Assembly (NCBI GenBank): GCA_937944405.1
Contig: CALDYR010000003.1
Coordinates: 26,633-90,632 of the forward strand
Direction: 5' to 3'
DNA from: an uncultured Pirellulaceae bacterium
Lineage (GTDB): Bacteria; Planctomycetota; Planctomycetia; Pirellulales; Pirellulaceae
Length of the DNA: 64,000 nucleotides
Part shown: one piece after another, positions 13,905-42,163 of the stretch
How the letters are laid out: each line of letters opens with the position of its first letter
How positions within the stretch are numbered: position 1 is the stretch's first letter
The notes under the pieces: generated by a model
Told to the model about the DNA's origin: nothing
What the model saw: the letters and a program-made list of their open reading frames with translations, nothing else
Databases searched by the model: none
Program-made: the position numbers and the translations under genes

Positions 13905-15431
13905 TCACTTTTGCTTGCGTTTCTTCTTCTTCTTCTTTTTACCTTCGAACCAAGCCTTTACCATGTCGACGCTTTGGATGTGCGTCGTCGGTTCCCCTTG
14001 GAAACAATGATTCACTAAATCCTCATCAGCCAAAGCGTCGATAGAATACGCGACGCCGTGGCAGTGATTACAAACGGAACGGATCATTTTTTCATTTGGT
14101 CGTAAGTTCTCGTTTTGATCGTGTTGCACAAAAATGTTTCCATCTTCGTCTTCCAGCGTCGGCATATGGCACGTTGCACAGGACACCCCGGTTCCCGGTT
14201 GGCCTTCCCCGGCGAGTTCCCGTTTCCATAGTTCGTAGTGCGTGGAAGCCTGATACGCCAACGAATGACGATCGTTGTGGCAGCTCAGACAGGCTTCGAC
14301 CGCTGCCAAACGGGTGTCGAAACGGTGTCCGGAATGACAGGACGCGCAATCAAGTGACTCATGAGCGCGACCTGATTTCATGGGCTGTCGAGCCAGACGG
14401 GGCGTCATCGGAGAGATTTGCAACGCCAACCGCATCCCGTGCTTACCTGCTGTGAATCCCGCCAGTTCGCGCTGGTGGCACTTGCCACAAGTCTGGTGGT
14501 CAACCCTATCGCTCCATTTTCCGGTGACTGCTGACGCTTCTGAAACGCCGGAAACGTCATCGGCCGAAGCCAAGGAATTGGCAACGTGACAATCGGAGCA
14601 GTTTACTTGCGACGCTGCGTGGGCAGTCGAGGCCCAGTCTTCCAGTACCGCGTCAGACCAATCGATGGACTTGTCGGCATTCATATCAGCAACGGTCAGT
14701 GGGGAAACCAACGCGGTGTCTTGTCCGGCACGGTGCTCCTTGACCGGAACACGTGGGTGATGGTTTTGTGCCCGGTGCGCGATCTGTTGACGCTCCAGCA
14801 TTGCAGGTTGGTCACTGTGCTTCCAAAGAAAATTTTCATAAAGGGCGCGATTGTCGTGATAGTTGTGACACCCAGCGGTGGCACAACTATCAAAGGAGAA
14901 ATCTTTGTGACTGGGGCGCTGAGACATTACGTCTTGGTGGCAGTGGTAACAATAGTCGGTCGGTAAGGACAAACCCATAAGGTCGGTGCGCTGCGGAACA
15001 TGTTCGCGGTGACACGTGATACATTTTTGAGCGTCCAGTAGCTTTAACCGATCAGCATTGGTTGGGTCGTTGAATTTTTTGGCCGGATGAGTGTCTTTAG
15101 CAATGTTTAATTGTTCTTGGTGACAGCTTAAACACGCGTCTTGTTTAACACCCATCAGAGGTGTGTGACAGGCATTGCACGCCAGTTCGATTTGATAGTG
15201 GCCATGCGTGGTCTGCCCAGGCAAAAGCAGCGTTTTCACCGACGCAAAAAGCGGTACATTGCGTCCAGAGATATGATCAGTGAACAGGACAAATACAAAC
15301 ACGACGATCAATGCCAATGTCATTGCCAGCCAGCAAAAGATCTGAATCGCAAACCATGAACGGCAAAAGCCCCAAAATTTCACTGTGAAGGGCTGTTTTT
15401 CACTTGAATTGTCTTCCGCTATGTTTTTCAA
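13905..15431 (-). CDS. Membrane-anchored multihaem cytochrome c (about 11 haem sites)
   Basis: N-terminal TM segment. Ten CXXCH motifs (CNACH, CLSCH, CITCH, CYHCH, CSDCH, CGKCH, CASCH, CLSCH, CATCH, CNHCH) plus one CATAGCH (CX4CH). Confidence 0.92.
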   Translation of the reverse strand: MKNIAEDNSSEKQPFTVKFWGFCRSWFAIQIFCWLAMTLALIVVFVFVLFTDHISGRNVPLFASVKTLLLPGQTTHGHYQIELACNACHTPLMGVKQDACLSCHQEQLNIAKDTHPAKKFNDPTNADRLKLLDAQKCITCHREHVPQRTDLMGLSLPTDYCYHCHQDVMSQRPSHKDFSFDSCATAGCHNYHDNRALYENFLWKHSDQPAMLERQQIAHRAQNHHPRVPVKEHRAGQDTALVSPLTVADMNADKSIDWSDAVLEDWASTAHAASQVNCSDCHVANSLASADDVSGVSEASAVTGKWSDRVDHQTCGKCHQRELAGFTAGKHGMRLALQISPMTPRLARQPMKSGRAHESLDCASCHSGHRFDTRLAAVEACLSCHNDRHSLAYQASTHYELWKRELAGEGQPGTGVSCATCHMPTLEDEDGNIFVQHDQNENLRPNEKMIRSVCNHCHGVAYSIDALADEDLVNHCFQGEPTTHIQSVDMVKAWFEGKKKKKKKRKQK

Positions 15432-15509
15432 ACGAAAATCTCATTAGTGTTCTGATCGCCAGTAACAGGCTAAAGTACCTGCGTGCTGTTGCCATATTGG
15501 TCTGGCGAC

Positions 15510-17579
15510 TTAGTAAAAGTAAACGCATGCGATGTGGATGATTAACAAAACCGGCATTGGCCATAGGCAGTAAATGTGCACCCTAGAAAGCCTTGGTTTC
15601 CATTGCCGAAGCGTCATTCCAAGTTCTCCTCCGGTTCTGGATTCCCACGAGGTAATCGCACCGGTGATTGCACCGCTGAAATTCAGGCTCAAAAACGTGA
15701 CCGCCAACAGTAAATTGAAGTTGCTTCCCATCCGCATCCCGGTGTGGACCAGTAACCCAACCAATGTCAGAATTCCAATGACACCGTGCGCTGTTCTCCA
15801 TAATCCGTAATTACCATAGGCAAATCGTTTCCAACGTTTTCGAAACGGCAGTAGCAGGGCCAGCCCAGAGATTCCCAATAATGCGTATCCGGTTACTTGC
15901 TTCCAGAAGGAATCGCGCCAAATAAAATCGATTCGATGCCAGAGTTCCAAAACGGTTTGAGCGTACGGTAACGGTCCAATTAGCCAAGCGGTCAGCAGTA
16001 TGATCGCAATGAACGATACCACTAACAGGCCTTTGCTGGGCCGCGCTGCGGGTTCGGTTGGTTCGTCAACCAGATCAGCCAATAGTGGTTTGCAAGAACC
16101 ACAAACCGTTGACGCTCCGGTGGATTCTGCTAACGCCGCCACGGTGCAGCACCCGGCCTGCTGCGCCGAAGTCAACGTCCCGCGACTGATTCTTAAGCAA
16201 CTACACACGATCGCCGATTCGGGCCACTGGGCCGGGTGCGCTTTGGCGCTTGGTTTCCAAAGATCACCTGTCAGGGCAAACCGGTTCAGTCTCCATTTCC
16301 AGATCCGATTCTTCGCCGCGATCGCTTGCCGAACTCGTTCGATCTCCGGCCATTCTCCGACGGCCATAATGCCCACGACACGTCCTTTGGAAAGAATCAA
16401 CTTGCGATATGTGTCTTCGGTTTTGGAAGATATCGTGGTTGCATTGGGAACTTCTCCCAGTGGTTGTCCCAGCGTTGCGACATCGACGCCCAATAATTTC
16501 AGTCTCGCCGACCGGTCGCCAGAAACAAAGCGCGCCTTGCCTGCGCTAATTTTCTTTCTCCGTCGTTGTGCTTGGATCTCTGCCATTAGGTTTTCGGCCA
16601 ACACGTCGGCCATTTGGTACCCGGGGGCAACCAACCCGTAAATGGTATCGTTGTGAGATGCACATTCACCGATTGCATAAATTTTGGGTACAGATGTTTG
16701 AAGTTGGTCGTCGACGCGAAAACCGCCACGGGATCCGGTTTCGATGTCACAGCTTTCAGCCAGAGAATCGTTAGGTCGGATACCTGCAGAAATAACAACC
16801 ATTCCAACCGTTAAAGGATCGCTGTTATCAAAGTGGAGCATCTGCTGCTGACCGCCACCGGTGATGCGTTCGGTGCGTTTAATCAGATGGACCTCGATGC
16901 CGAGTTTTTCGATCTCCGTCTGCAGAACTTTCGCGCCTTCGGAATCTAACTGTCGAGGCATCAAGGTGGGGGCCATTTCAACGACATGGGTTTTGACGCC
17001 GAGGTCGTGGAGTGCTTTGGCGGCCTCTAAGCCTAGCAGACCGCCACCGAGAACCGCTGCCGAGGTGACGTTTCGGCTGAAATTGTCGATCTCAACGACA
17101 TCGTCAATGCTGCGGTAAACGAATACACCGGTGTTGTCGACGCCCTCAATTGGAGGCACAAAGGGACGTGATCCAGTTGCCAACACAAGCCGGTCATAAC
17201 TAATCGTTTTGCCTAAAGAAGTCGTTACGGTTTGAGCATCGGAATCAACCGAAGTCACGCGCTGCCCAAGCTTCAACTCGATACCGCGCGTTTCGTACCA
17301 TTGCCGGTCTGACAACAACAAATCATCAACAGATCGATTTTCGAAATACCGAGTCAAATGGACTCGATCGTAAGCGGGACGCCGTTCCTCGCCAACGACA
17401 ATGATTTTGAATCGCGGGGCCGAAACGCTATCCGTTGCGTTTCCCGTTGTGCCGTCAGAAGCGTTCTCAAGTGCGTCCATGGACGCACTTCCGACCAATT
17501 TTGAGCAAAGGCAGTGACTGACCATGCCGTTTCCGACGACAAGTATCGTCAGCGGTTCGCGGTCACTTTGAGAATCCAT
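15510..17579 (-). CDS. FAD/NAD(P)-dependent oxidoreductase (NirB N-terminal-like) fused to a BFD-like [2Fe-2S] domain and a membrane cytochrome-b-like domain
   Basis: 'RLVLATGSRPFVPPIEGVDN', 'AAVLGGGLLGLEAAKALHDLG', 'IYAIGECA'; BFD cysteines 'VCSC...VCGSC'; C-terminal TM helices with two H-X13-H pairs. Start at MDSQSDREPL overlaps the upstream globin stop (TGATG). Confidence 0.88.
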   Translation of the reverse strand: MDSQSDREPLTILVVGNGMVSHCLCSKLVGSASMDALENASDGTTGNATDSVSAPRFKIIVVGEERRPAYDRVHLTRYFENRSVDDLLLSDRQWYETRGIELKLGQRVTSVDSDAQTVTTSLGKTISYDRLVLATGSRPFVPPIEGVDNTGVFVYRSIDDVVEIDNFSRNVTSAAVLGGGLLGLEAAKALHDLGVKTHVVEMAPTLMPRQLDSEGAKVLQTEIEKLGIEVHLIKRTERITGGGQQQMLHFDNSDPLTVGMVVISAGIRPNDSLAESCDIETGSRGGFRVDDQLQTSVPKIYAIGECASHNDTIYGLVAPGYQMADVLAENLMAEIQAQRRRKKISAGKARFVSGDRSARLKLLGVDVATLGQPLGEVPNATTISSKTEDTYRKLILSKGRVVGIMAVGEWPEIERVRQAIAAKNRIWKWRLNRFALTGDLWKPSAKAHPAQWPESAIVCSCLRISRGTLTSAQQAGCCTVAALAESTGASTVCGSCKPLLADLVDEPTEPAARPSKGLLVVSFIAIILLTAWLIGPLPYAQTVLELWHRIDFIWRDSFWKQVTGYALLGISGLALLLPFRKRWKRFAYGNYGLWRTAHGVIGILTLVGLLVHTGMRMGSNFNLLLAVTFLSLNFSGAITGAITSWESRTGGELGMTLRQWKPRLSRVHIYCLWPMPVLLIIHIACVYFY

Positions 17580-17995
17580 CAAACCGCACCCTGGTTGGCA
17601 GCACCTTTCATGAGGTCCGCCAAGGTCGTATAGACGATGGTCCAAGCCTCCTTAACGTCCTCGGTGAACGACTCTCCTAAGCCTTGCTGCAAGGTCCAGA
17701 GCAGGGCCGCCCCCACTGTGGCGTAGTGTTCGTCTTTGACGTTGTAGGTTGCGTGACGTTTTCCAAGACCTTCGACCACGGGCGTCAGTTCCCCTAAGTC
17801 ATCCAGCCCACGAACCGCCGCACCGATCATGGTCATTAGTTTTCTCCCTTGCTCCTCCATGTCGCCTTTGAAAAGAGACCGAAGGCTGGGGTCGAGTTCG
17901 AAGAGCTTACCGTAAAACAACGACGCAGCAGTTTCGGAGATTTCTTTCACCGGCTCCCAAGTCGATTGTACTAACTCTTTTTGTTCAGGCGTCAT
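17579..17995 (-). CDS. Single-domain globin
   Basis: 'MTPEQKELVQSTWEPVKEISETAASLFYGKLFELDPSLRSLFKGDMEEQGRKLMTMIGAAV...LGKRHATYNVKDEHYATVGAALLWTLQQGLGESFTEDVKEAWTIVYTTLADLM': distal/proximal-type residues and typical globin helices. Confidence 0.92.
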   Translation of the reverse strand: MTPEQKELVQSTWEPVKEISETAASLFYGKLFELDPSLRSLFKGDMEEQGRKLMTMIGAAVRGLDDLGELTPVVEGLGKRHATYNVKDEHYATVGAALLWTLQQGLGESFTEDVKEAWTIVYTTLADLMKGAANQGAV

Positions 17996-18141
17996 ATGAA
18001 ATTCCTTTGATGGTTGGCACTGTGGCCAGTGTAATCCGCAACCTGATTCAAGCGCCGCAGTTTGGGAGCCGTGTTTGGAAAACACATCTTCCCAGCGGTC
18101 TGGAAGCAGGCGTTCATGTTCGATCAAAACACTATTGGAAA

Positions 18142-18774
18142 TTAGTTCAGTGGGATTCTCACGACCACGCCGCCCATCACGTCATCTTTCTTGAATTCAG
18201 GGTAGTCATCACCACGATTAGGGTGTTCGTTATGGCATTCCCAACATGCTTGAGCCACGGCTTTGTCACCGTAAATCGCCGTAAAGAATTTCTTATCGCC
18301 CAACGTTTCGGTGCCGTAGAAAGTTTCGCCCGGGTTTTTCTCGATGAAATCCAATCCTTCGGCTTCGGTGTCCGACTTAGCGTGGTGCTGGTCATTCAAT
18401 GGCCATTTCGATCGAAGTCCATAGGTGAATCCCGCGGTTGGATTTTCGTCTACTAATTCGGCACCCATACGAAACATCTGGGCCGGTAGGGGAATCGTTC
18501 CTTCTTCATCTTCCCAGTATTCGCTGGGCTTGGTTTCGCTTTCGGCCTTTTTAAGCCGAGTCACCACGTGTTTGGCATAAACGGTTCGGTCGGCCTTCAT
18601 CACCGCGTAAACCGCGTTCGCGAACTGCTTAGGGGAGATGCCTGACGACTCAGCAGCCATTGGCGGTTTGGAAGCCTCTGCTTGCGAGGTTGCCTCGCCA
18701 CCACACCCCAGCGCCGGCAGCGTACCTGCACACACCATCAGCAACATCAGAAAACGCAAAAAGGAGTTATTCAT
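18142..18774 (-). CDS. DUF3365/Tll0287-like c-haem protein, exported
   Basis: Signal peptide/lipobox-like N-terminus; haem site 'AQACWECHNEHPNRGDDYPEFKKDDVMGGVVVRIPL', typical of DUF3365 proteins. Confidence 0.82.
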   Translation of the reverse strand: MNNSFLRFLMLLMVCAGTLPALGCGGEATSQAEASKPPMAAESSGISPKQFANAVYAVMKADRTVYAKHVVTRLKKAESETKPSEYWEDEEGTIPLPAQMFRMGAELVDENPTAGFTYGLRSKWPLNDQHHAKSDTEAEGLDFIEKNPGETFYGTETLGDKKFFTAIYGDKAVAQACWECHNEHPNRGDDYPEFKKDDVMGGVVVRIPLN

Positions 18775-18986
18775 TAGCCAACACCCAACAAACGAGGAAG
18801 AAAACTGTTTCAAACTGTCGCGGTTGAAGTGCAAAACAAAGGCCAATCATGTTTTGTCATTTGCGGCAATGGTTCGTCTATTGAGCGATCCTTACCTAAA
18901 AGAGAGTTTTAATGGCGGAGCGGTGTTGATATCCACTGCTACATTAAGTTCATGTGAAAATAGAGTTCGGTATAGATGCCAAAATG

Positions 18987-19012
18987 ATTTGCACTGCGGT
19001 GCAAATTTTTTT
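18987..19012. terminator. Stem-loop terminator between the sulfotransferase and DUF3365 genes
   Basis: atttgcac-tgcg-gtgcaaat followed by a T run. Confidence 0.55.
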
Positions 19013-26227: not shown

Positions 26228-26770
26228 ATGGGACTGATCACGGCCACCAAGGCCTTTTGCAAATTATTATTCAATCCTCAACTGTGCGATTCGTTCGACG
26301 AGATGATTGCCTCCGGTGGTACGCTTAAGATTGAATCCAAACCGGCCGCCGAATCGCCTAAACCCATCCCACCGGAGATCCCGGTGCGCAGTGATGCGAT
26401 CAGTTTAATCGCCGCCTTGCAGCGCGAGGCGCGGTTGCTAGACATCGTCACCGAATCGTTGGACGGTTATTCAGACGCTCAGATCGGCGCGGCGGCCAAA
26501 GAGGTACTGCGAGACACCGGAGCGGTGATTGACCGCATGTTCGGGCTGCAACCGTTGACCACGGTTGAGGACGGAGCGCATTTCGAAACGCCGGATAAAT
26601 TCGACGCCGCGATGTACCGTTTGACCGGCAACGTTAGCGGCGAAGCCCCGTTCCGTGGTACCGTCAACCATCATGGTTGGCAGGCGACTAAGTGTGATGT
26701 CCCGCAGTGGAATGGGGAAAAAGAATCAGCGCTGGTGATCGCGCCTATCGAACTTGAGATCAAATCATGA
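26228..26770 (+). CDS. DUF2760 domain protein
   Basis: 'SDAISLIAALQREARLLDIVTESLDGYSDAQIGAAAKEVLRDTGAVIDRMFGLQPL...YRLTGNVSGEAPFRGTVNHHGWQATKCDVPQW', next to Hsp70 genes. Confidence 0.82.
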   Translation: MGLITATKAFCKLLFNPQLCDSFDEMIASGGTLKIESKPAAESPKPIPPEIPVRSDAISLIAALQREARLLDIVTESLDGYSDAQIGAAAKEVLRDTGAVIDRMFGLQPLTTVEDGAHFETPDKFDAAMYRLTGNVSGEAPFRGTVNHHGWQATKCDVPQWNGEKESALVIAPIELEIKS

Positions 26771-28560
26771 ACCAGTTCATCATCGGTATCGATTTAGGGA
26801 CAACCAATAATGTGCTCGCGTTTTGCGAATCTCATCAAACAAACGACACCACTGACGTGCAGTTGCTGAAGATTCCGCAATTAGTTGCCGCCCACACGGT
26901 GGAAGCTAAATCTGCGTTGCCGTCGTTTTCTTATCTGGCCGCCGAAGCCGAAACCACCGGCGGTGCGCTGGATCTGCCGTGGGCTGAGGGACGTAATTTC
27001 GCCACCGGAGAATTCGCTAGATCCAAAGGGGCCGATACGCCCGACCGGACGATCGGCGCTTCCAAGAGTTGGCTGTGTCATAACAAAGTCGATCGGCGCG
27101 CGCCGATTTTGCCTTGGAATGCCGATGGCGACGTCGGGAAGATATCACCCGTTGCTGCGGCGCAGCAGTATCTCGAACACTTGGTCGCGGCGTGGCATGC
27201 GCGATTTCCCGAGTCTCCAATTTCCGATCAACACGTAGTGCTAACGGTGCCGGCATCGTTCGATCCTGTCGCGCGGGAACTAACGCGCGAAGCCGCAATC
27301 GCTGCTGGTTTACCGCCGCACTTTGTATTGCTTGAAGAACCTCAAGCCGCACTTTACGCGTGGCTTAATCAGCAGGGCGATCAGTGGCGAAAAACCCTCC
27401 AAGTGGGGCAGTCAGTTTTGGTTTGTGACGTCGGCGGCGGCACCACAGATTTGACCTTGATCGCGGTCGATCAAAACGACGGGGAACTTGAACTGCGGCG
27501 AGTCGCGGTCGGGGAGCATTTATTGGTTGGTGGCGATAACATGGATCTATCGGCGGCCTATTTTGTGTCCGGTAAGCTTTCAGAACAAGGCTCAACGCTT
27601 GACCCGTGGCAGTCGGTTTCTCTGTGGCACAGTTGCCGGGCAGCGAAAGAGGCACTTTTGACCGATGACGGACCTGCAACCCACACCATCACCGTGCTCG
27701 GACGTGGCAGTAAGCTGATCGGATCGACGGTGTCGGTCGAAATCAACAAAGAAGAAATTGCCGGCCTGGTGCTCGATGGTTTCTTTCCAAAATGCCATTT
27801 GACCGATCGTCCAGTCCGGCAGCCGGCATCTGGTTTTCAAGAGATCGGTTTGCCGTACGAATCCGATCCCGGCATCACTCGGCACATCGCGGCATTCGTT
27901 GGCTCCCATTGCACGGGAGAAAATGATTCGGTTTCGATGCCAAATTATGTCTTGTTCAACGGGGGCGTGTTTAAAGCCAACGGGCTCAAGCAGCGGATGC
28001 TGGAGGTGATGTCCACTTGGTCTGGAGATCAAGACGTCCAAGAACTTAGCGGGGGAAGCGCGCTTGATTATGCGGTGGCCAAGGGCGCATGCTTTTACGG
28101 ATTCAATCAACAGTCCGGAGGTCTGCGCATTCGTGGCGGCGTCGGTCGGTCTTACTATGTGGGCATCGAAACTGCGGGGCTGGCGATTCCCGGTGCCCCC
28201 CGTCCGATGAAGGCGTTGTGTGTCGTCCCATTTGGGATGGAAGAAGGTACCGAAGTATCTGTGCCCTCGGGAGAATTCGCTTTGGTCGTTGGGCAACCGG
28301 CTCAGTTTCGTTTCTTCAGTTCTAACACCCGCAAAGAAGACCAACCGGGAAAACTGCTTGACCGTTGGACCGAAGAAGAACTGGCGGAAACCGACCCATT
28401 AGTTGCGACATTGAATTTGGAAGATTCCGATGAAACCTTCGTGCCGGTAAAATTCCGTTCAAAGATTACCGAACTTGGAATGTTCGAACTGTGGTGTGAG
28501 ACTGGCGAATCTGAGCAAGCCAAACGCTGGAAGCTTGAGTTCAACGTGCGTGAAAATTAG
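26767..28560 (+). CDS. Hsp70-family protein
   Basis: 'IGIDLGTTNNVLAF', 'LEEPQAALYAWL', 'VLVCDVGGGTTDLTLIAV'. Overlaps the DUF2760 stop (ATGA). Confidence 0.93.
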   Translation: MNQFIIGIDLGTTNNVLAFCESHQTNDTTDVQLLKIPQLVAAHTVEAKSALPSFSYLAAEAETTGGALDLPWAEGRNFATGEFARSKGADTPDRTIGASKSWLCHNKVDRRAPILPWNADGDVGKISPVAAAQQYLEHLVAAWHARFPESPISDQHVVLTVPASFDPVARELTREAAIAAGLPPHFVLLEEPQAALYAWLNQQGDQWRKTLQVGQSVLVCDVGGGTTDLTLIAVDQNDGELELRRVAVGEHLLVGGDNMDLSAAYFVSGKLSEQGSTLDPWQSVSLWHSCRAAKEALLTDDGPATHTITVLGRGSKLIGSTVSVEINKEEIAGLVLDGFFPKCHLTDRPVRQPASGFQEIGLPYESDPGITRHIAAFVGSHCTGENDSVSMPNYVLFNGGVFKANGLKQRMLEVMSTWSGDQDVQELSGGSALDYAVAKGACFYGFNQQSGGLRIRGGVGRSYYVGIETAGLAIPGAPRPMKALCVVPFGMEEGTEVSVPSGEFALVVGQPAQFRFFSSNTRKEDQPGKLLDRWTEEELAETDPLVATLNLEDSDETFVPVKFRSKITELGMFELWCETGESEQAKRWKLEFNVREN

Positions 28561-28689
28561 CCACCTTGAGTCGGTGAGGCGCGGTTTGACGATCCTCGGT
28601 TTTAGTTCCCAACCATTCCAGCAGCAAAGTTGGCGCCTAGTGTTATCGCCACTCTTTATTATTTATTAAACAATTTTTAAAAATCTACC

Positions 28690-31527
28690 GTGACTTCTTC
28701 CAACGAAAATTTCGACCCGTTAGTCGATTCTTTACCCAGTCGTTTCGTCGTTGGAATTGACTTAGGTACTACCAATTCTGCTGTTACCTACATTGATACC
28801 CAGCGATCTGATTGGGAGATCGGCGTGCTGTCGATGCCGCAATTGGTTGCCGTGGGTGAATTAGAATCGTTGGACACCCTGCCATCGTTTTATTACCAAC
28901 CGGCGGTGGCGAGCGAAACTGATTCTTTCGCGTTGCCGTGGGATAAGAAATCGCCTCGGTTCTGCGTGGGAGCCTATGCGCGCGATGAAACAGCGATAAC
29001 GTCGGGGCGCGGGATCGCGTCGGCCAAATCATGGCTGTGTCACGCGGCGGTGGACCGGACCGCTCCGTTGTTGCCATGGCAGGGGGCGGCAGATGTGAAA
29101 CGGCTTTCCCCGGTCGAAGTCTCCAGCAGCTACTTAAAACACATCCGTAAATCATGGAATCATCAATTTCCAGGCCACCCTTTGTCGGAACAGGATATCG
29201 TGCTGACGCTGCCAGCGTCTTTTGATGAAGTTGCTCGCGCGTTCACGATCCAAGCCGCTGCTGATGCTGGGCTGAAGCGTGTCGTGTTGATTGAGGAGCC
29301 ACAAGCCGCGTTCTACGCTTGGGTTTATAAGCACGCGAAAGATTGGGACGCCAAAATCTCTGTTGGGCAAAAGATTTTGGTCTGCGACATTGGTGGCGGC
29401 ACTACGGACTTCACCTTGATTCGTGTCCGCAAGTCCACCGGTGATCAGGAAGTTCAATTTCATCGCGTTGCGGTCGGCAATCACTTGATTCTGGGCGGCG
29501 ATAACTTAGATTTGGCCATCGCAAAATTCATCGAAAAAAAATTAGTGGGCGATGCCCATTTGTCACCAGCGCAATGGGACGTGTTGGTTGGAATCAGCCG
29601 CAACGTCAAAGAGAAGATGTTAGCGGCCGGCGACCGCCCTGCTGAATTTTCGGTCAGCCTACCTGGGATCGGTGCGCAGTTGATTGGCGGGAGTTTAACC
29701 ACTCAGGTTTCGCGCGCCGAAATTCAATCGTTGATTATTGATGGGTTTTTACCGGTCGTTGAACCGACGGAGAAACCGAAGACGCCTCAAAGCGGTTTTC
29801 AAGAGTTCGGGTTACCCTACGCCAGTGATTCAGCGATCACTCGGTATCTTGCTGATTTTTTAATGACGCATCGCAGCGCTGGAACCGATCAAGACGATGA
29901 TTCAGCCCATCCCGATGTTGTGCTGTTCAACGGCGGGTTTTTCGCGTCGCCGTTATTGCGTTCAACGGTGGTGGAACGCATCGAAGCTTGGTTTCGGGCA
30001 GGGCAGGGCGACGATTGGAGCCCTCAAGTTTTGGAAAACGATCGGCTCGATTTGGCCGTTGCGCGGGGGGCGGCGTATTACGGCATGGTGCGCCGTGATC
30101 AAGGCGTGCGCATCGCTGCCGCCCTGGCACGCAGTTACTACATCGGCGTTGGCGGTGGAAATGCGCTGTGCATCATGCCCGGAAGTGCGGAACCGGGGGA
30201 ATCGTTTACGCTCGATGAGAGGCAATTTTTGTTGACGATTTCTCAACCCGTCGAATTTCCTATTTACGTCTCCAGCGTTCGGTTGGCGGATAAGGTTGGG
30301 CAGGTCATTCCCTTGGACGAACAACAGCTACGACCGCTGCCGCCAATTCGAACGGTGCTGAAGGTTAAAAGCAAAAATGAAAAGCGCGACGTAGCGGTGA
30401 ATCTGCGGGTAGGGTTAACCGAAATCGGGACCATCGCGCTTTCCTGTCACGAGGTCGACAGTGAGCGCAGTTGGCGGTTGCAATTTGATGTCCGCAGCAC
30501 CACCCAAACCGACGTTATGGCTCATCAAGGAACTGGCGAAGTGGAGGGATTTGTGGACGACGCAACATGGAAGTCTTGCGCCGATGCGATCGCGCATGTT
30601 TTCCATACAGACGCCGATAGCCTCGATTTAGCCCCCAAAAAGTTGATGGAAACACTCAATACCATTTTGGACGCGCCGCGTGAGCAGTGGCCCATGTCCG
30701 TTTTGCGGCGGATTTGGGAGTCGCTGATGGAACACATGGAAGGAAGACGCAAGAGTGCATCGCATGAAGCGCGTTGGTTGAATTTGTTGGGGTTCTCTTT
30801 GCGTCCCGGATACGGCATGGCACTTGACGATTGGCGAGTCACCGAAACTTGGCGAAACGTGCGGAATAAATTAATACACCGTTCGCCTCAAGTCCAAACT
30901 CAAGCCCTGATCCTTTGGCGGCGTTTGAGCGGAGGTTTAACCGCCGGGCAGCAGGTCGCGATCGCGGCACCGTTGTTGGCCGCGTTACGGGCGTTCGCTA
31001 AACAAATGGCAGGCAAAACCGTCAAAGGCAACGCCGTTCCGATCAAACCCGAGGACTCCGTCGAGGTCTGGCGATTGTTGGGATCGCTTGAATTGCTACC
31101 AGTAAAAGACAAAATCGAACTGGGCGATTTGATACTAGCGCTGTGGAGTAGACCGAAACTCGCACCGGCACATGACGCGATGGCGTGGACGTTGGGTCGT
31201 TTAGGCCAGAGAGCGCCTCTAACCGAGGCCATTCAGTGTATCGTGGCAACTGACCAAGTTCAACGCTGGTTGGCGGTTTTAATCCAAGAAACCGATGCTT
31301 CACCATTGACTAAGTTGGCCGTGACGTTGATGGCGCGTAAGGTCAGTGATCGTTACCGAGACATTCAACCGTCAATTCGTGAAGACGTGATGGCGTGGTT
31401 GAGAAACCAAGACGCGGCTACTGCTTATCTTAACCTTGTTGAAGTCGGCGGTAGTTTTGACTACGAACAACGCGCCGAAGTATTTGGAGAATCGCTTCCC
31501 CCGGGATTACGTTTGTCGGTGCGATAG
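28690..31527 (+). CDS. Hsp70-family protein with long C-terminal extension
   Basis: 'VGIDLGTTNSAVTYIDT', 'LIEEPQAAFYAWVYK', 'ILVCDIGGGTTDFTLIRV'. About 330-aa helical C-terminal extension. GTG start. Confidence 0.93.
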   Translation: MTSSNENFDPLVDSLPSRFVVGIDLGTTNSAVTYIDTQRSDWEIGVLSMPQLVAVGELESLDTLPSFYYQPAVASETDSFALPWDKKSPRFCVGAYARDETAITSGRGIASAKSWLCHAAVDRTAPLLPWQGAADVKRLSPVEVSSSYLKHIRKSWNHQFPGHPLSEQDIVLTLPASFDEVARAFTIQAAADAGLKRVVLIEEPQAAFYAWVYKHAKDWDAKISVGQKILVCDIGGGTTDFTLIRVRKSTGDQEVQFHRVAVGNHLILGGDNLDLAIAKFIEKKLVGDAHLSPAQWDVLVGISRNVKEKMLAAGDRPAEFSVSLPGIGAQLIGGSLTTQVSRAEIQSLIIDGFLPVVEPTEKPKTPQSGFQEFGLPYASDSAITRYLADFLMTHRSAGTDQDDDSAHPDVVLFNGGFFASPLLRSTVVERIEAWFRAGQGDDWSPQVLENDRLDLAVARGAAYYGMVRRDQGVRIAAALARSYYIGVGGGNALCIMPGSAEPGESFTLDERQFLLTISQPVEFPIYVSSVRLADKVGQVIPLDEQQLRPLPPIRTVLKVKSKNEKRDVAVNLRVGLTEIGTIALSCHEVDSERSWRLQFDVRSTTQTDVMAHQGTGEVEGFVDDATWKSCADAIAHVFHTDADSLDLAPKKLMETLNTILDAPREQWPMSVLRRIWESLMEHMEGRRKSASHEARWLNLLGFSLRPGYGMALDDWRVTETWRNVRNKLIHRSPQVQTQALILWRRLSGGLTAGQQVAIAAPLLAALRAFAKQMAGKTVKGNAVPIKPEDSVEVWRLLGSLELLPVKDKIELGDLILALWSRPKLAPAHDAMAWTLGRLGQRAPLTEAIQCIVATDQVQRWLAVLIQETDASPLTKLAVTLMARKVSDRYRDIQPSIREDVMAWLRNQDAATAYLNLVEVGGSFDYEQRAEVFGESLPPGLRLSVR

Positions 31528-38431: not shown

Positions 38432-41400
38432 ATGAGAATCGACGAGAAGAGGTTGCGGTTATGCAAACACCGTTTGAACTTGTTGGAAAATGTAACCAAT
38501 GCCCGAACTGATCTTTGGGCGATGCTGCGTTCATCAACATTGATGGCTGCCGCGGTTGTTGCGGTTTCGGTGGGCACGCCGTTTGAACGTGCCGAATCGC
38601 AACTGGTGGTAACGAAGTCAATTCAGGATGGCGACTGGAATGATCCTGCCATCTGGAGCAGGGGTGTGCCCACCAACAGTTCACGAGCAATCGTCGGTGA
38701 GGACACGACCGTTAACTTGGGCGGTCGGGATCATGTTGCGGGCGAATTGATCATTCATGGGATATTAAATGTGCCCGAAGGGGTGGCCGAAACAGATCAG
38801 GTTCGGACCGATACGATCGAATTTAGCCGCGATGGAATTGCCGTCAGTGATTCGGCGACCGGGCAAGGCCACCTGATGTACTCGGTGGAAGATGTTCAGT
38901 CGCGTTTTGGCGTTGGGAATGACACAAACTCGAACGTAATTGCCGTTCGTTTTGCAAATGGCGGCTGGCAATTCAACAATGATATCCGCTGGCGTGACTT
39001 TCTACCCGAAAGTGGTGACCGCTTAATTGCTGAGGTCGATTTTGACTCAAACACAGTCACCGCGCTTCGAGGGGTGTCTGGCCGATTTCGCGGGATTGCT
39101 GCCGGTTATGTAATTGGGAATTTAACTTTTGAATCAAATCCGATTGGTCTGGCGGTCAATGCGTTAGATATTTTTGTTGGCGGCGATTGGTTTACGTCAG
39201 CCACAAGACGGGCGTTTCGTGGGCGGAGCATCGGTAGCCCGGGCCAAGGGGTTGCGGTGGCTATCGACGTAAGTGGCGAGGGCTATCTAATGCACAGCGT
39301 TAAAAGTACGCAATCTCGGTTCGGTATGAGTGCGGAGAGAAACGGTAATGTAATCGCGGTCCGCAATGTTGGCTTGGGATGGGAATACAATAACGGTCGC
39401 CGTTGGATCGGATTTGACAACAGGGCGTCTGATCGCATTTTGGCGGCCGTAGATTTTTCTGATGACCGGGTGACGTCGCTTCGTGGCAGCACGGGCGAAA
39501 TTGAAGGAATTCAGGCGGGTTTCTTGTCCGGTGATATTTCGTTTGAATCCAACGGTCGCGGTCGTGCGGCCACTGGACGCGGGTTCGTGGTTCACGGCAC
39601 TCAATTTGTCACCAATCGTTTTATCCGGCCCACCAGCAACGAATTGGACGTCGACAAAACGCTGACAACGCGGTTTGTTCACGTCAACAGCCGAGGGGTT
39701 TTTCGGATTGGTTCTGATCACAATCGATTCGACGATGGAACGTTCACGATGACATTGACCGGAATACAGCCTCTGTCGGACCACACCATTCCGATGGCCA
39801 ATGGAACATCATTTGTACGAGAAGATTACGATGGTTTTTTGATTGCAGAAAAAGGGGGACGCCTGCAGTTTTTCGGTGAAGATCGTTTAGGTCACACCCA
39901 ATTATCCGCAACGGCAAAAGCTGGTGATGCGTCGATCCGTGTCGTGAATGTAATTGAAAGAAATTTCGACGGAGTGACATCGGAAGATTCGGATGGGCGC
40001 GTCGATTTTAAAGTTGGTGATGAAATCGTTATCGCAAGCAGTAGCAATGATTACCGAGAAGAGGATGTGAGAACGGTCGTTTCGGTTGATCAAAACCGTT
40101 TTGAGTCCATATTAGGGTTGGACCGACCCTTGTCATATCGTCATTACGGTGAGATTGAAACGTACGGCCAATCTAGGGCGCGAGGTGCGAATCCCACAGC
40201 AGCGGCAACTTCCATAAATCTTCGGGCCGAAGTCGCTCTATTGAGCCGTAACGTTGTCATCACGGGACTGGAGTCGCAAGATACGGATGTCGAATTCGGT
40301 GACCGTATATTACTTCAGTCGTCTGGTCGCGGGCGTCGCACGACCGCCACCAACGGTATTGGGGGCCACATTATCATTTTTGGTGGTGCCGGGCAAACGG
40401 GAATTGATGGTGTGCAGTTAGACCTGATGGGGCAAGCTGGCCTTTCGGGGCGGTATCCTATTCACTGGTATCTTGGTGGTGATCGCGAAGGTGACTTTTT
40501 CCGCAACTCCAGCGTTACCAATTCGAATAATCGCGGGGTCGTGGTGCATGGCACGGATAATCTTACCGTTGAAGAAGTGGTAATTCATGACATTCACGGC
40601 CACGGTTTCTTCACACAAAGCGGTGTGGAGATGGGGAATCGATTTTATAACAATATCGCGTTTGGAATTCACCGTGTTGGTACGAGCGTTGACCTAGCAG
40701 ATCCGTTTATCGTCGATGTGCATGATTTGACCCGCAACCAACCACGACAGTTCGTTTCATCGTCCGCGTTCTGGATCACCAGTGCTGCGAACGCATACAT
40801 GGGGAATATCTCCGCTGGTGCGGAGGGATCGGGTTTTTGGTTTGCTCCGGTTGGTGAGGCGGAACGTCCTCCGACAGCGGCCGATTTCATAAAGGGACCG
40901 CCGGAACTGGTTGACATTTACAACCGAGATCCTCTGGCGTTGACGATTGGTCAATTTGAGCACAACACGTCTCACTCGGCCGCGACCGGTTTGGTGATCC
41001 GAGAAATCGTACAAACTGGTTTCCAGGGATCAGGTGACCTTGCTGACAAACTTTTCGGTGGTGACGAATCCGTTTTGGGCGATGTTGGGCTGATCAAAGA
41101 TTTCACAGTTTACAAAACGTTTACAGGGTTTTACTCCCGCACCGACGAGGCGTTCGTTCATTTTGAAAACTTCCGAGCGGCCGATAATCAGTTTTCCTAT
41201 TGGGACACGATGCCGGCGACTATCGATAAAGGTCTTTTTGTTGGGCATTCGCGTGGAAACAGTCAGTCCTACATTAACGCTAACCCGATCGCATTTTTTA
41301 GATACTTCGATCAGTTGAGGCTCTCTGATATTCACTTTGCAGGTTACGGTGTGAACCAGCACGGAGTAACGCCGACGCTGTTCCGCAACGGTGGCTTTCA

Positions 41401-42163
41401 AAACCAAGTTGGTAGCACCGCCACGGGGATTTCGTTCGAAGATACTGCCACGGCCGAAAGCGTAAGGCACATCGAGGGAGCCCTTGCGGTCGCTGGGCTA
41501 CGGCCGTTGCTGGATCTCGATGGCAGCCTGACCGGCCATGTCGGTGGAGGGGCTGGGTACAACCTACTTCGCGCCCATGACTATTGGTTTACCGGACAGG
41601 ACGACGACGAGGTAATTTCTTCGTCGGCCGTTCCAAACGAAGCCGCAATCACACGCAAGGAGTTTGCGAGTTTCCACCTAATAGAGCGTGGTGAAGGTGG
41701 GGCGGGACAGAACGTGCGTTTGCGGATCACACCACCTCATGGGGAATCGTTCGAATTCGGCGGAGTACCGAGTGACGAAGTCGCTAATTCGGTTGGTAGA
41801 CGCCCATTCGTTGACGACCCGCGTGCTCCAGTCGTAGTGGGGGAGGAATATACCATCGAACCAGTGCGTCCTTACAACTTGCCCATCAACGCGTTTAAGT
41901 TCGCTTATTTCGACTGGAAATCACCAGAGAACACGGTTTCTAACACGTTCCGTTTGGTTGGTGCAGCGGAAGTGATGACACCGACGTACAGTCAAACCGG
42001 TAAAACACTACGTCGTGTTGGCAGGCTTGCGCGGTTGCGAGCTGCTACTGAAAATACATTTTTCCGCGACAGCAACGGGGATCTGTACTTGAAGTTGTTC
42101 AATGCGACCGCTGACACTCCAGGTGCGATTGACCGTAACATCTTTACGATGGTGCCTTTTTAA
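38432..42163 (+). CDS. Secreted CEMIP/PKHD1-like protein with G8 domain and parallel beta-helix
   Basis: 'QDGDWNDPAIWSRGVPT' and 'VNSRGVFRIGSDHNRFDDGTFTMTLTG' (G8-like), 'INLRAEVALLSRNVVITG', and beta-helix sequence 'NSSVTNSNNRGVVVHGTDNLTVEEVVIHDIHGHGFFTQSGVEMGNRFYNNIAFG'. Confidence 0.82.
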   Translation: MRIDEKRLRLCKHRLNLLENVTNARTDLWAMLRSSTLMAAAVVAVSVGTPFERAESQLVVTKSIQDGDWNDPAIWSRGVPTNSSRAIVGEDTTVNLGGRDHVAGELIIHGILNVPEGVAETDQVRTDTIEFSRDGIAVSDSATGQGHLMYSVEDVQSRFGVGNDTNSNVIAVRFANGGWQFNNDIRWRDFLPESGDRLIAEVDFDSNTVTALRGVSGRFRGIAAGYVIGNLTFESNPIGLAVNALDIFVGGDWFTSATRRAFRGRSIGSPGQGVAVAIDVSGEGYLMHSVKSTQSRFGMSAERNGNVIAVRNVGLGWEYNNGRRWIGFDNRASDRILAAVDFSDDRVTSLRGSTGEIEGIQAGFLSGDISFESNGRGRAATGRGFVVHGTQFVTNRFIRPTSNELDVDKTLTTRFVHVNSRGVFRIGSDHNRFDDGTFTMTLTGIQPLSDHTIPMANGTSFVREDYDGFLIAEKGGRLQFFGEDRLGHTQLSATAKAGDASIRVVNVIERNFDGVTSEDSDGRVDFKVGDEIVIASSSNDYREEDVRTVVSVDQNRFESILGLDRPLSYRHYGEIETYGQSRARGANPTAAATSINLRAEVALLSRNVVITGLESQDTDVEFGDRILLQSSGRGRRTTATNGIGGHIIIFGGAGQTGIDGVQLDLMGQAGLSGRYPIHWYLGGDREGDFFRNSSVTNSNNRGVVVHGTDNLTVEEVVIHDIHGHGFFTQSGVEMGNRFYNNIAFGIHRVGTSVDLADPFIVDVHDLTRNQPRQFVSSSAFWITSAANAYMGNISAGAEGSGFWFAPVGEAERPPTAADFIKGPPELVDIYNRDPLALTIGQFEHNTSHSAATGLVIREIVQTGFQGSGDLADKLFGGDESVLGDVGLIKDFTVYKTFTGFYSRTDEAFVHFENFRAADNQFSYWDTMPATIDKGLFVGHSRGNSQSYINANPIAFFRYFDQLRLSDIHFAGYGVNQHGVTPTLFRNGGFQNQVGSTATGISFEDTATAESVRHIEGALAVAGLRPLLDLDGSLTGHVGGGAGYNLLRAHDYWFTGQDDDEVISSSAVPNEAAITRKEFASFHLIERGEGGAGQNVRLRITPPHGESFEFGGVPSDEVANSVGRRPFVDDPRAPVVVGEEYTIEPVRPYNLPINAFKFAYFDWKSPENTVSNTFRLVGAAEVMTPTYSQTGKTLRRVGRLARLRAATENTFFRDSNGDLYLKLFNATADTPGAIDRNIFTMVPF

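Follow-up and report, generated by a model that had tools for sequence, protein, structure and literature searches.

Four redox genes at one locus

The 64,000-nucleotide stretch of DNA analyzed here (the window) comes from a planctomycete assembly of 3.95 Mb in 161 contigs that is 93% complete. Four genes lie on its minus strand. The first, HCL (18142..18774), encodes a stand-alone lipoprotein of 210 amino acids with a DUF3365/Tll0287 c-heme Cache domain (PF11845) and a single CWECH motif. GLB (17579..17995) specifies a single-domain globin of 138 amino acids (PF00042). FUS (15510..17579) specifies a 689-amino-acid fusion in which an FAD/NAD(P)H oxidoreductase resembling the N terminus of NirB (partial TIGR02374, Pyr_redox_2, Rubredoxin_C, Fer2_BFD) is joined to a BFD [2Fe-2S] domain and a diheme cytochrome b with five transmembrane helices. 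The last gene, CYC (13905..15431), encodes a membrane-anchored undecaheme c-type cytochrome of 508 amino acids, recognized by its 11 heme motifs.

A sequence-only reading of this DNA had described the four genes as one minus-strand run with an overlap between the globin stop and the oxidoreductase start. Our reading of the open reading frames and domains bears out the run, and the overlap is read directly in the sequence TGATG (17577..17581, minus strand): the GLB stop codon TGA (17581-17579) and the FUS start codon ATG (17579-17577) have one base in common. Three of the genes likely start within their longest reading frames. Specifically, HCL likely starts at ATG 18774, not TTG 18846, with a signal peptide and lipobox following; GLB at ATG 17995, not TTG 18127; and FUS at ATG 17579, not TTG 17645. 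We prefer these shorter forms because they agree with relatives and, for HCL, also because of the lipoprotein signal. CYC starts at TTG 15431.

The intergenic DNA about 210 bases upstream of HCL carries a palindrome, ATTTGCAC-CGCA-GTGCAAAT (18986..19007, no strand assigned), a possible operator or terminator-like stem, and no conserved counterpart of it was found in relatives. The gap between FUS and CYC contains an inverted repeat, TCGCCAG...CTGGCGA, at 15456-15508 with a 39-base loop. Elsewhere, the window encodes two neighboring Hsp70-like proteins (26767-31527), the second with a DUF3731 domain, and a 1243-amino-acid protein with a CEMIP-type beta-helix domain (38432-42163).

A conserved cassette in many phyla

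When 247 genomes of the order were searched with the FUS membrane domain alone, 15 other FUS genes were found. CYC and HCL adjoin all 15, and a globin is present at 11 of these loci, one of them as a weak fragment. A wider GTDB genome scan with a CYC alignment, using one genome per species, returned 271 relatives, and 80 loci were retained from these; scanning genome contigs with a single FUS protein gave no matches. The set obtained after duplicate removal comprises 91 loci. FUS adjoins CYC in every one of these, and 89 have HCL nearby. Chance grouping is thus excluded by both surveys. Co-occurrence in related genomes had been set beforehand as the refuting test, and the outcome favors the cluster. 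FUS, CYC, and HCL are its conserved core, and the original observation holds up and applies more widely than first noted. The literature searched held no published description of this gene set.

The cassette occurs in about nine phyla: Planctomycetota, Verrucomicrobiota, Lentisphaerota, Pseudomonadota, Myxococcota, Acidobacteriota, Rhodothermota, Thermodesulfobacteriota, and Binatota. A single record, mostly from a metagenome bin, represents each of the final four. The usual gene order is FUS-CYC-HCL-GLB; the window has HCL-GLB-FUS-CYC, as do L039 and L040, its nearest relatives. The core is co-inherited: the FUS and CYC trees are correlated (Mantel r 0.77, reached in 0/1000 permutations) and have 49 of 86 splits in common. 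Planctomycete CYC sequences cluster together in the tree, and no plasmid relatives of CYC were found.

The NirB-like half of FUS

The flavoprotein portion of FUS matches Pyr_redox_2 at 181 bits, with Rubredoxin_C and Fer2_BFD also over their cut-offs. The NirB profile TIGR02374 reaches 438 bits, below its cut-off of 578, and covers only profile positions 23-467 of 794. No NIR_SIR sirohaem/4Fe-4S domain was found in the domain search. The sirohaem half of NirB is missing, and a membrane cytochrome b domain stands in its place. The BFD-like [2Fe-2S] domain of FUS (16062..16211, minus strand; PF04324, 33 bits, cut-off 26) supplies Cys459, Cys461, Cys493, and Cys496.

An undecaheme cytochrome

CYC matches cytochrome c3/c7 domain families. 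In the window, one of its 11 heme motifs is C-x4-CH, and 11 motifs are present in the CYC of all 91 non-redundant loci. Alignment of 72 sequences reveals exactly 11 invariant His residues outside the motifs. Every heme could, then, be bis-His coordinated; an open catalytic heme is possible, but it is not evident, because the invariant non-motif His are as many as the hemes. An attempt to locate an active-site heme by alignment failed, the heme repeats fitting several registers.

These data bear on the possibility that CYC is a reductase in its own right. CYC would then act in the periplasm as a reductase of the NrfA/ONR/HAO type, with nitrite, hydroxylamine, or NO as its substrate, FUS would be its dedicated NADH-linked donor, and the system would be ammonifying or respiratory more than protective. 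The C-terminal half of CYC indeed has local profile similarity to octaheme nitrite reductase and NrfA (E about 1e-10), and the top Foldseek matches of a heme-free model are two HAOs and the hypothetical multiheme protein 4qo5, the HAO matches being weak (E 0.03-0.11, TM about 0.2-0.3). However, the profile matches are short, repetitive, and register-shifting, and the fold E value is 0.03 at best. All 11 sites in the aligned sequences are Cx2CH or Cx4CH, with no CxxCK in any relative, and the count of invariant His equals that of the hemes. Moreover, the 15 other FUS-carrying genomes of the order all possess a sirohaem nitrite reductase, NirA or NirB. We therefore regard a reductase in its own right as unlikely.

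Association with nitrate assimilation

Genes of nitrate assimilation accompany FUS at two scales, the genome and the locus. Among genomes of the order, NasA is found in 14/16 with FUS versus 54/231 without it (Fisher p 4e-7, phylogeny ignored), and a sirohaem nitrite reductase in 15/16 of those with FUS (p 7e-9, phylogeny again ignored). Within the window's genus, NasA is present in 5/7 genomes that carry FUS versus 4/21 that do not. Nitrate genes lie within 32 of the 91 loci, and nitrate reductase and nitrate transport genes are encoded together with the cassette in many relatives (e.g., L169 and L021-L026). At L169, from the window's genus, FeS-NasA-NirA-SiR flavoprotein genes, a porin gene, and FUS-CYC-HCL-GLB fit inside about 16 kb. 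In four genomes, Nrt-FeS-NasA-FUS-CYC-HCL is a single run, and FUS comes straight after NasA at L023-L026. Other genes that recur near the cluster are NrtA, NrtB, NasT, NsrR-like genes (4 loci), and genes for NorR-like activators (6 loci); those NsrR-like and NorR-like genes that were scanned score under family cut-offs. Among FUS-carrying genomes outside the planctomycetes, many NasA matches were obtained at 33-38% identity, a level at which they are indistinguishable from formate dehydrogenase.

The gene for a conserved protein of about 287 amino acids (L023:1923-2786 and homologs, cluster c11) lies between those for the nitrate transporter and FeS/NasA, and the protein matches no NCBIfam family. 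At L134 (G000:C21:28879-30150), a formate-dehydrogenase-like molybdopterin gene contains one in-frame TGA, possibly encoding selenocysteine.

The window's own assembly yielded no NasA, NirA, or NirB. Its sirohaem and molybdopterin matches comprise a sulfite reductase, a PhsA-like enzyme, and, judged by eye, a gene resembling formate dehydrogenase. The next of kin of the window genome, G300 and G302, do possess NasA; L039 apparently comes from G300. The missing genes may reflect incompleteness or loss, and they are a real caveat to the nitrate link. We rejected a role for the cluster as a substitute for the assimilatory nitrite reductase; NirA or NirB accompanies FUS in all 15 other sampled genomes of the order that carry it.

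A precedent for such an association comes from Bradyrhizobium japonicum, in which the narK-bjgb-flp-nasC genes encode a globin, Bjgb, and a flavoprotein, Flp, that protect against NO formed in nitrate assimilation. Growth of the bacterium on nitrate requires Flp, which has also been proposed to re-reduce Bjgb (PMC4724949). By extension, FUS could supply electrons to NasA, the assimilatory nitrate reductase, in the manner of Flp for NasC, with the heme-containing parts tuning or bypassing that supply. The NirB/NasB-like character of the FUS flavoprotein half, the position of FUS right behind NasA in some relatives, and the dependence of Bradyrhizobium on Flp all argue for such a role. Against it, the same Nrt-FeS-NasA run occurs in G032, G064, and G157, all close relatives, where FUS, CYC, and HCL are missing; because of these three genomes, we regard the cassette as added on to NasA and not as essential to it. 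Likewise, the 54 genomes with NasA that lack FUS, and the window genome, with FUS and no detected NasA, render a donor role distinctly unlikely.

The membrane domain and the proposed electron path

The cytochrome b domain of FUS (15513..16037, minus strand) is predicted by AlphaFold2 to form five long helices (pLDDT 92.5). His598 and His612 lie on transmembrane helix 3, and His668 and His682 lie on helix 5, with a spacing of 14 residues in each case. Two His pairs 14 residues apart on helices 3 and 5 are the pattern of transmembrane flavocytochromes b. Because helices 3 and 5 are expected to be parallel, the likely heme-b pairs are 598-668 on the cytosolic side and 612-682 on the periplasmic side. 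Of 90 sequences, 89-90 retain each of the four heme-b His and the four BFD Cys, and the FAD/NAD glycines are likewise invariant or nearly so in this set. These conserved ligands and the five-helix model support the architecture and the electron path put forward earlier, from NAD(P)H to FAD, [2Fe-2S], the b hemes, and CYC.

The histidine pattern also lends itself to a NOX- or ferric-reductase-like interpretation, in which the set would export excess reducing equivalents, with oxygen, metals, or an acceptor in the outer membrane as their destination, and the NO-binding proteins would be brakes or bystanders. Alginate_exp-type porin genes, which are present in 21/95 loci, would suit such an export route, but nitrate uptake explains them equally well, and the association with nitrate assimilation is strong. 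With respect to the membrane domain itself, a fold search of solved structures returned no significant PDB match, and Pfam detects no PF01794 (ferric reductase) in FUS. Profile comparison of the cytochrome b domain with ferric reductases and DUF4405 gave no significant match, the ferric reductase comparison reaching 20% probability over 31 columns. Export of this kind thus strikes us as quite improbable.

Two variants of FUS deserve mention. In Polyangium (L079, L086, and L087), FUS is about 1250-1300 amino acids long, roughly 600 residues longer than usual, and a scan of the L086 protein revealed no extra Pfam domain. Distant kin of the membrane domain, about 300-350 amino acids long and devoid of the flavin half, are encoded at L036:9205-10095, L037:9230-10120, and L038:10473-11525. 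All three, each from a different genome, adjoin cytochromes with 10 heme motifs, and the L036 relative also adjoins a cNMP-binding/4Fe-4S protein. Perhaps this arrangement reflects a wider cytochrome b-multiheme module.

The cytosolic heme protein and the lipoprotein

GLB matches PF00042 at 60 bits, and its best PDB relatives are the "hemoglobin-like flavoprotein" globins 3s1i/3ubc (E 4e-29). Of the 91 loci, 55 include a globin, and Tyr28, Gln49, and His81 are invariant among these 55 cluster globins. Eight globin-less loci possess a truncated hemoglobin gene instead, accompanied in six of the eight by a gene for a flavin/[2Fe-2S] reductase. In one of the truncated hemoglobin loci, Crenothrix L082, the N terminus of FUS is an H-NOX domain (PF07700, E 6e-34). 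The interchange of three different NO-binding heme folds at the same place points to NO, and it is the strongest functional clue that we have. Counting against the NO reading, 28 of the 91 loci, some on short contigs, have no globin, truncated hemoglobin, or H-NOX nearby.

HCL matches PF11845 at 57 bits (cut-off 24.1) and has no meaningful sequence match in the PDB. Among 24 relatives, the lipobox Cys is nearly invariant and CxxCH is invariant, and no other Cys is conserved. According to a 2026 preprint (PMC12889525), DUF3365 domains fused to signaling modules bind NO tightly and have been assigned NO sensing, and stand-alone members have been assigned a redox role with Cys/His ligation; the sole stand-alone protein studied has redox properties and is not NO-sensing. 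HCL may differ from that protein because it has no conserved Cys besides those of the lipobox and CxxCH. The suggestion that HCL and the globin or H-NOX are mainly sensors gating FUS electron flow by NO or redox state, although compatible with the Crenothrix fusion, with tight NO binding by signaling DUF3365 proteins, and with the absence from HCL of a conserved Cys of the kind tied to the redox type, is highly improbable given that HCL and the globin have no signaling domain and that stand-alone DUF3365 proteins are assigned redox roles.

A proposed transmembrane relay

The interpretation that we favor is that the cluster encodes an NADH-driven transmembrane relay that, together with a cytosolic NO-binding hemoprotein, limits the stress caused by NO, and possibly by nitrite or hydroxylamine, chiefly in nitrate assimilators. 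We consider this about evenly poised between right and wrong. Specifically, NAD(P)H would reduce the FAD of FUS, and electrons would pass through the BFD [2Fe-2S] cluster and two stacked b hemes to the periplasmic face. From the b hemes they would proceed to anchored CYC, which, with or via HCL, would hand them to a periplasmic acceptor, possibly NO, nitrite, or hydroxylamine. In the cytosol, the globin would bind NO and O2, and the flavoprotein half of FUS would re-reduce it, as proposed for Flp and Bjgb.

A bolder version, which we advance tentatively and think doubtful, is that FUS-CYC-HCL is an undescribed, ancient class of NADH-driven complex that clears periplasmic NO (or nitrite or hydroxylamine) via CYC and acts with an interchangeable cytosolic hemoprotein, giving a two-sided NO defense in nitrate assimilation across many phyla.

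Counted against the relay and its connection to NO are the lack of NasA, NirA, and NirB in the window's assembly, the lack of an evident open heme in CYC, and the redox, not NO-sensing, character of the stand-alone DUF3365 protein. Three rivals to the relay are the most serious: that CYC is itself a multiheme reductase, that FUS is a donor to NasA, and that the set exports electrons in a NOX-like manner. The sequence-only reading had suggested an NO- or nitrite-directed system. Its NO component is strengthened by the heme-fold swaps, the neighboring nitrate genes, and the Bradyrhizobium precedent; a main nitrite reductase is unsupported, all other sampled FUS-carrying genomes of the order having NirA or NirB.

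If the relay exists as proposed, it would explain how nitrate users outside the well-studied models handle NO formed as a by-product of nitrate assimilation. It would add a new transmembrane flavin/iron-sulfur/heme-b design feeding an 11-heme cytochrome, and the cassette gives context to the stand-alone DUF3365 family. The gene core is strict, it is represented by the 271 matching stretches of the GTDB scan, and its cultured hosts include Rhodopirellula, Marinobacter, and Filomicrobium.

Comparison with known systems

The cluster had been described at the outset as not Nrf, Nir, Nor, or flavohemoglobin, and that description holds: no sirohaem domain, CxxCK motif, or globin-FNR fusion is present. 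FUS has the same order of FAD, Rubredoxin_C, and BFD domains as NirB/NasB, as its TIGR02374 score reflects, but a membrane cytochrome b in place of the sirohaem/4Fe-4S catalytic half. CYC resembles NrfA, octaheme nitrite reductase, and HAO locally, in its C-terminal hemes and in a weak fold match; it differs in carrying 11 hemes in one chain, a transmembrane anchor, and no CxxCK. Unlike the globin of a flavohemoglobin, GLB is a separate protein. NOX and ferric reductases share with FUS a working principle, electron passage from NAD(P)H by way of FAD and two stacked b hemes through the membrane, whereas FUS has an unrelated flavin domain, an extra [2Fe-2S] cluster, five helices, and no detectable homology to them. 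Similar to the heme-Cache proteins of the DUF3365/Tll0287 family (PMC12889525), HCL is a stand-alone Cache domain with CxxCH; in contrast to them, it is a lipoprotein with no conserved Cys for Cys/His ligation and with FUS and CYC as fixed partners.

The nearest functional precedent is Bjgb-Flp-NasC of Bradyrhizobium. Both systems pair the gene for a single-domain globin with one for an FAD/NAD(P)H flavoprotein, and GLB and FUS overlap by one base. NO protection, reported for Bradyrhizobium, is the role proposed here. Nitrate reductase and nitrate transport genes adjoin the cassette in many relatives but were not found in the window or its assembly. Flp is reported to be an oxidoreductase of the cytoplasm; FUS instead possesses a [2Fe-2S] domain and a diheme-b membrane domain with five predicted helices, and, unlike Bjgb-Flp, it is always paired with an 11-heme CYC and nearly always with a heme-Cache lipoprotein. 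FUS may combine an Flp-like role for the globin with a transmembrane electron drive to CYC and HCL.
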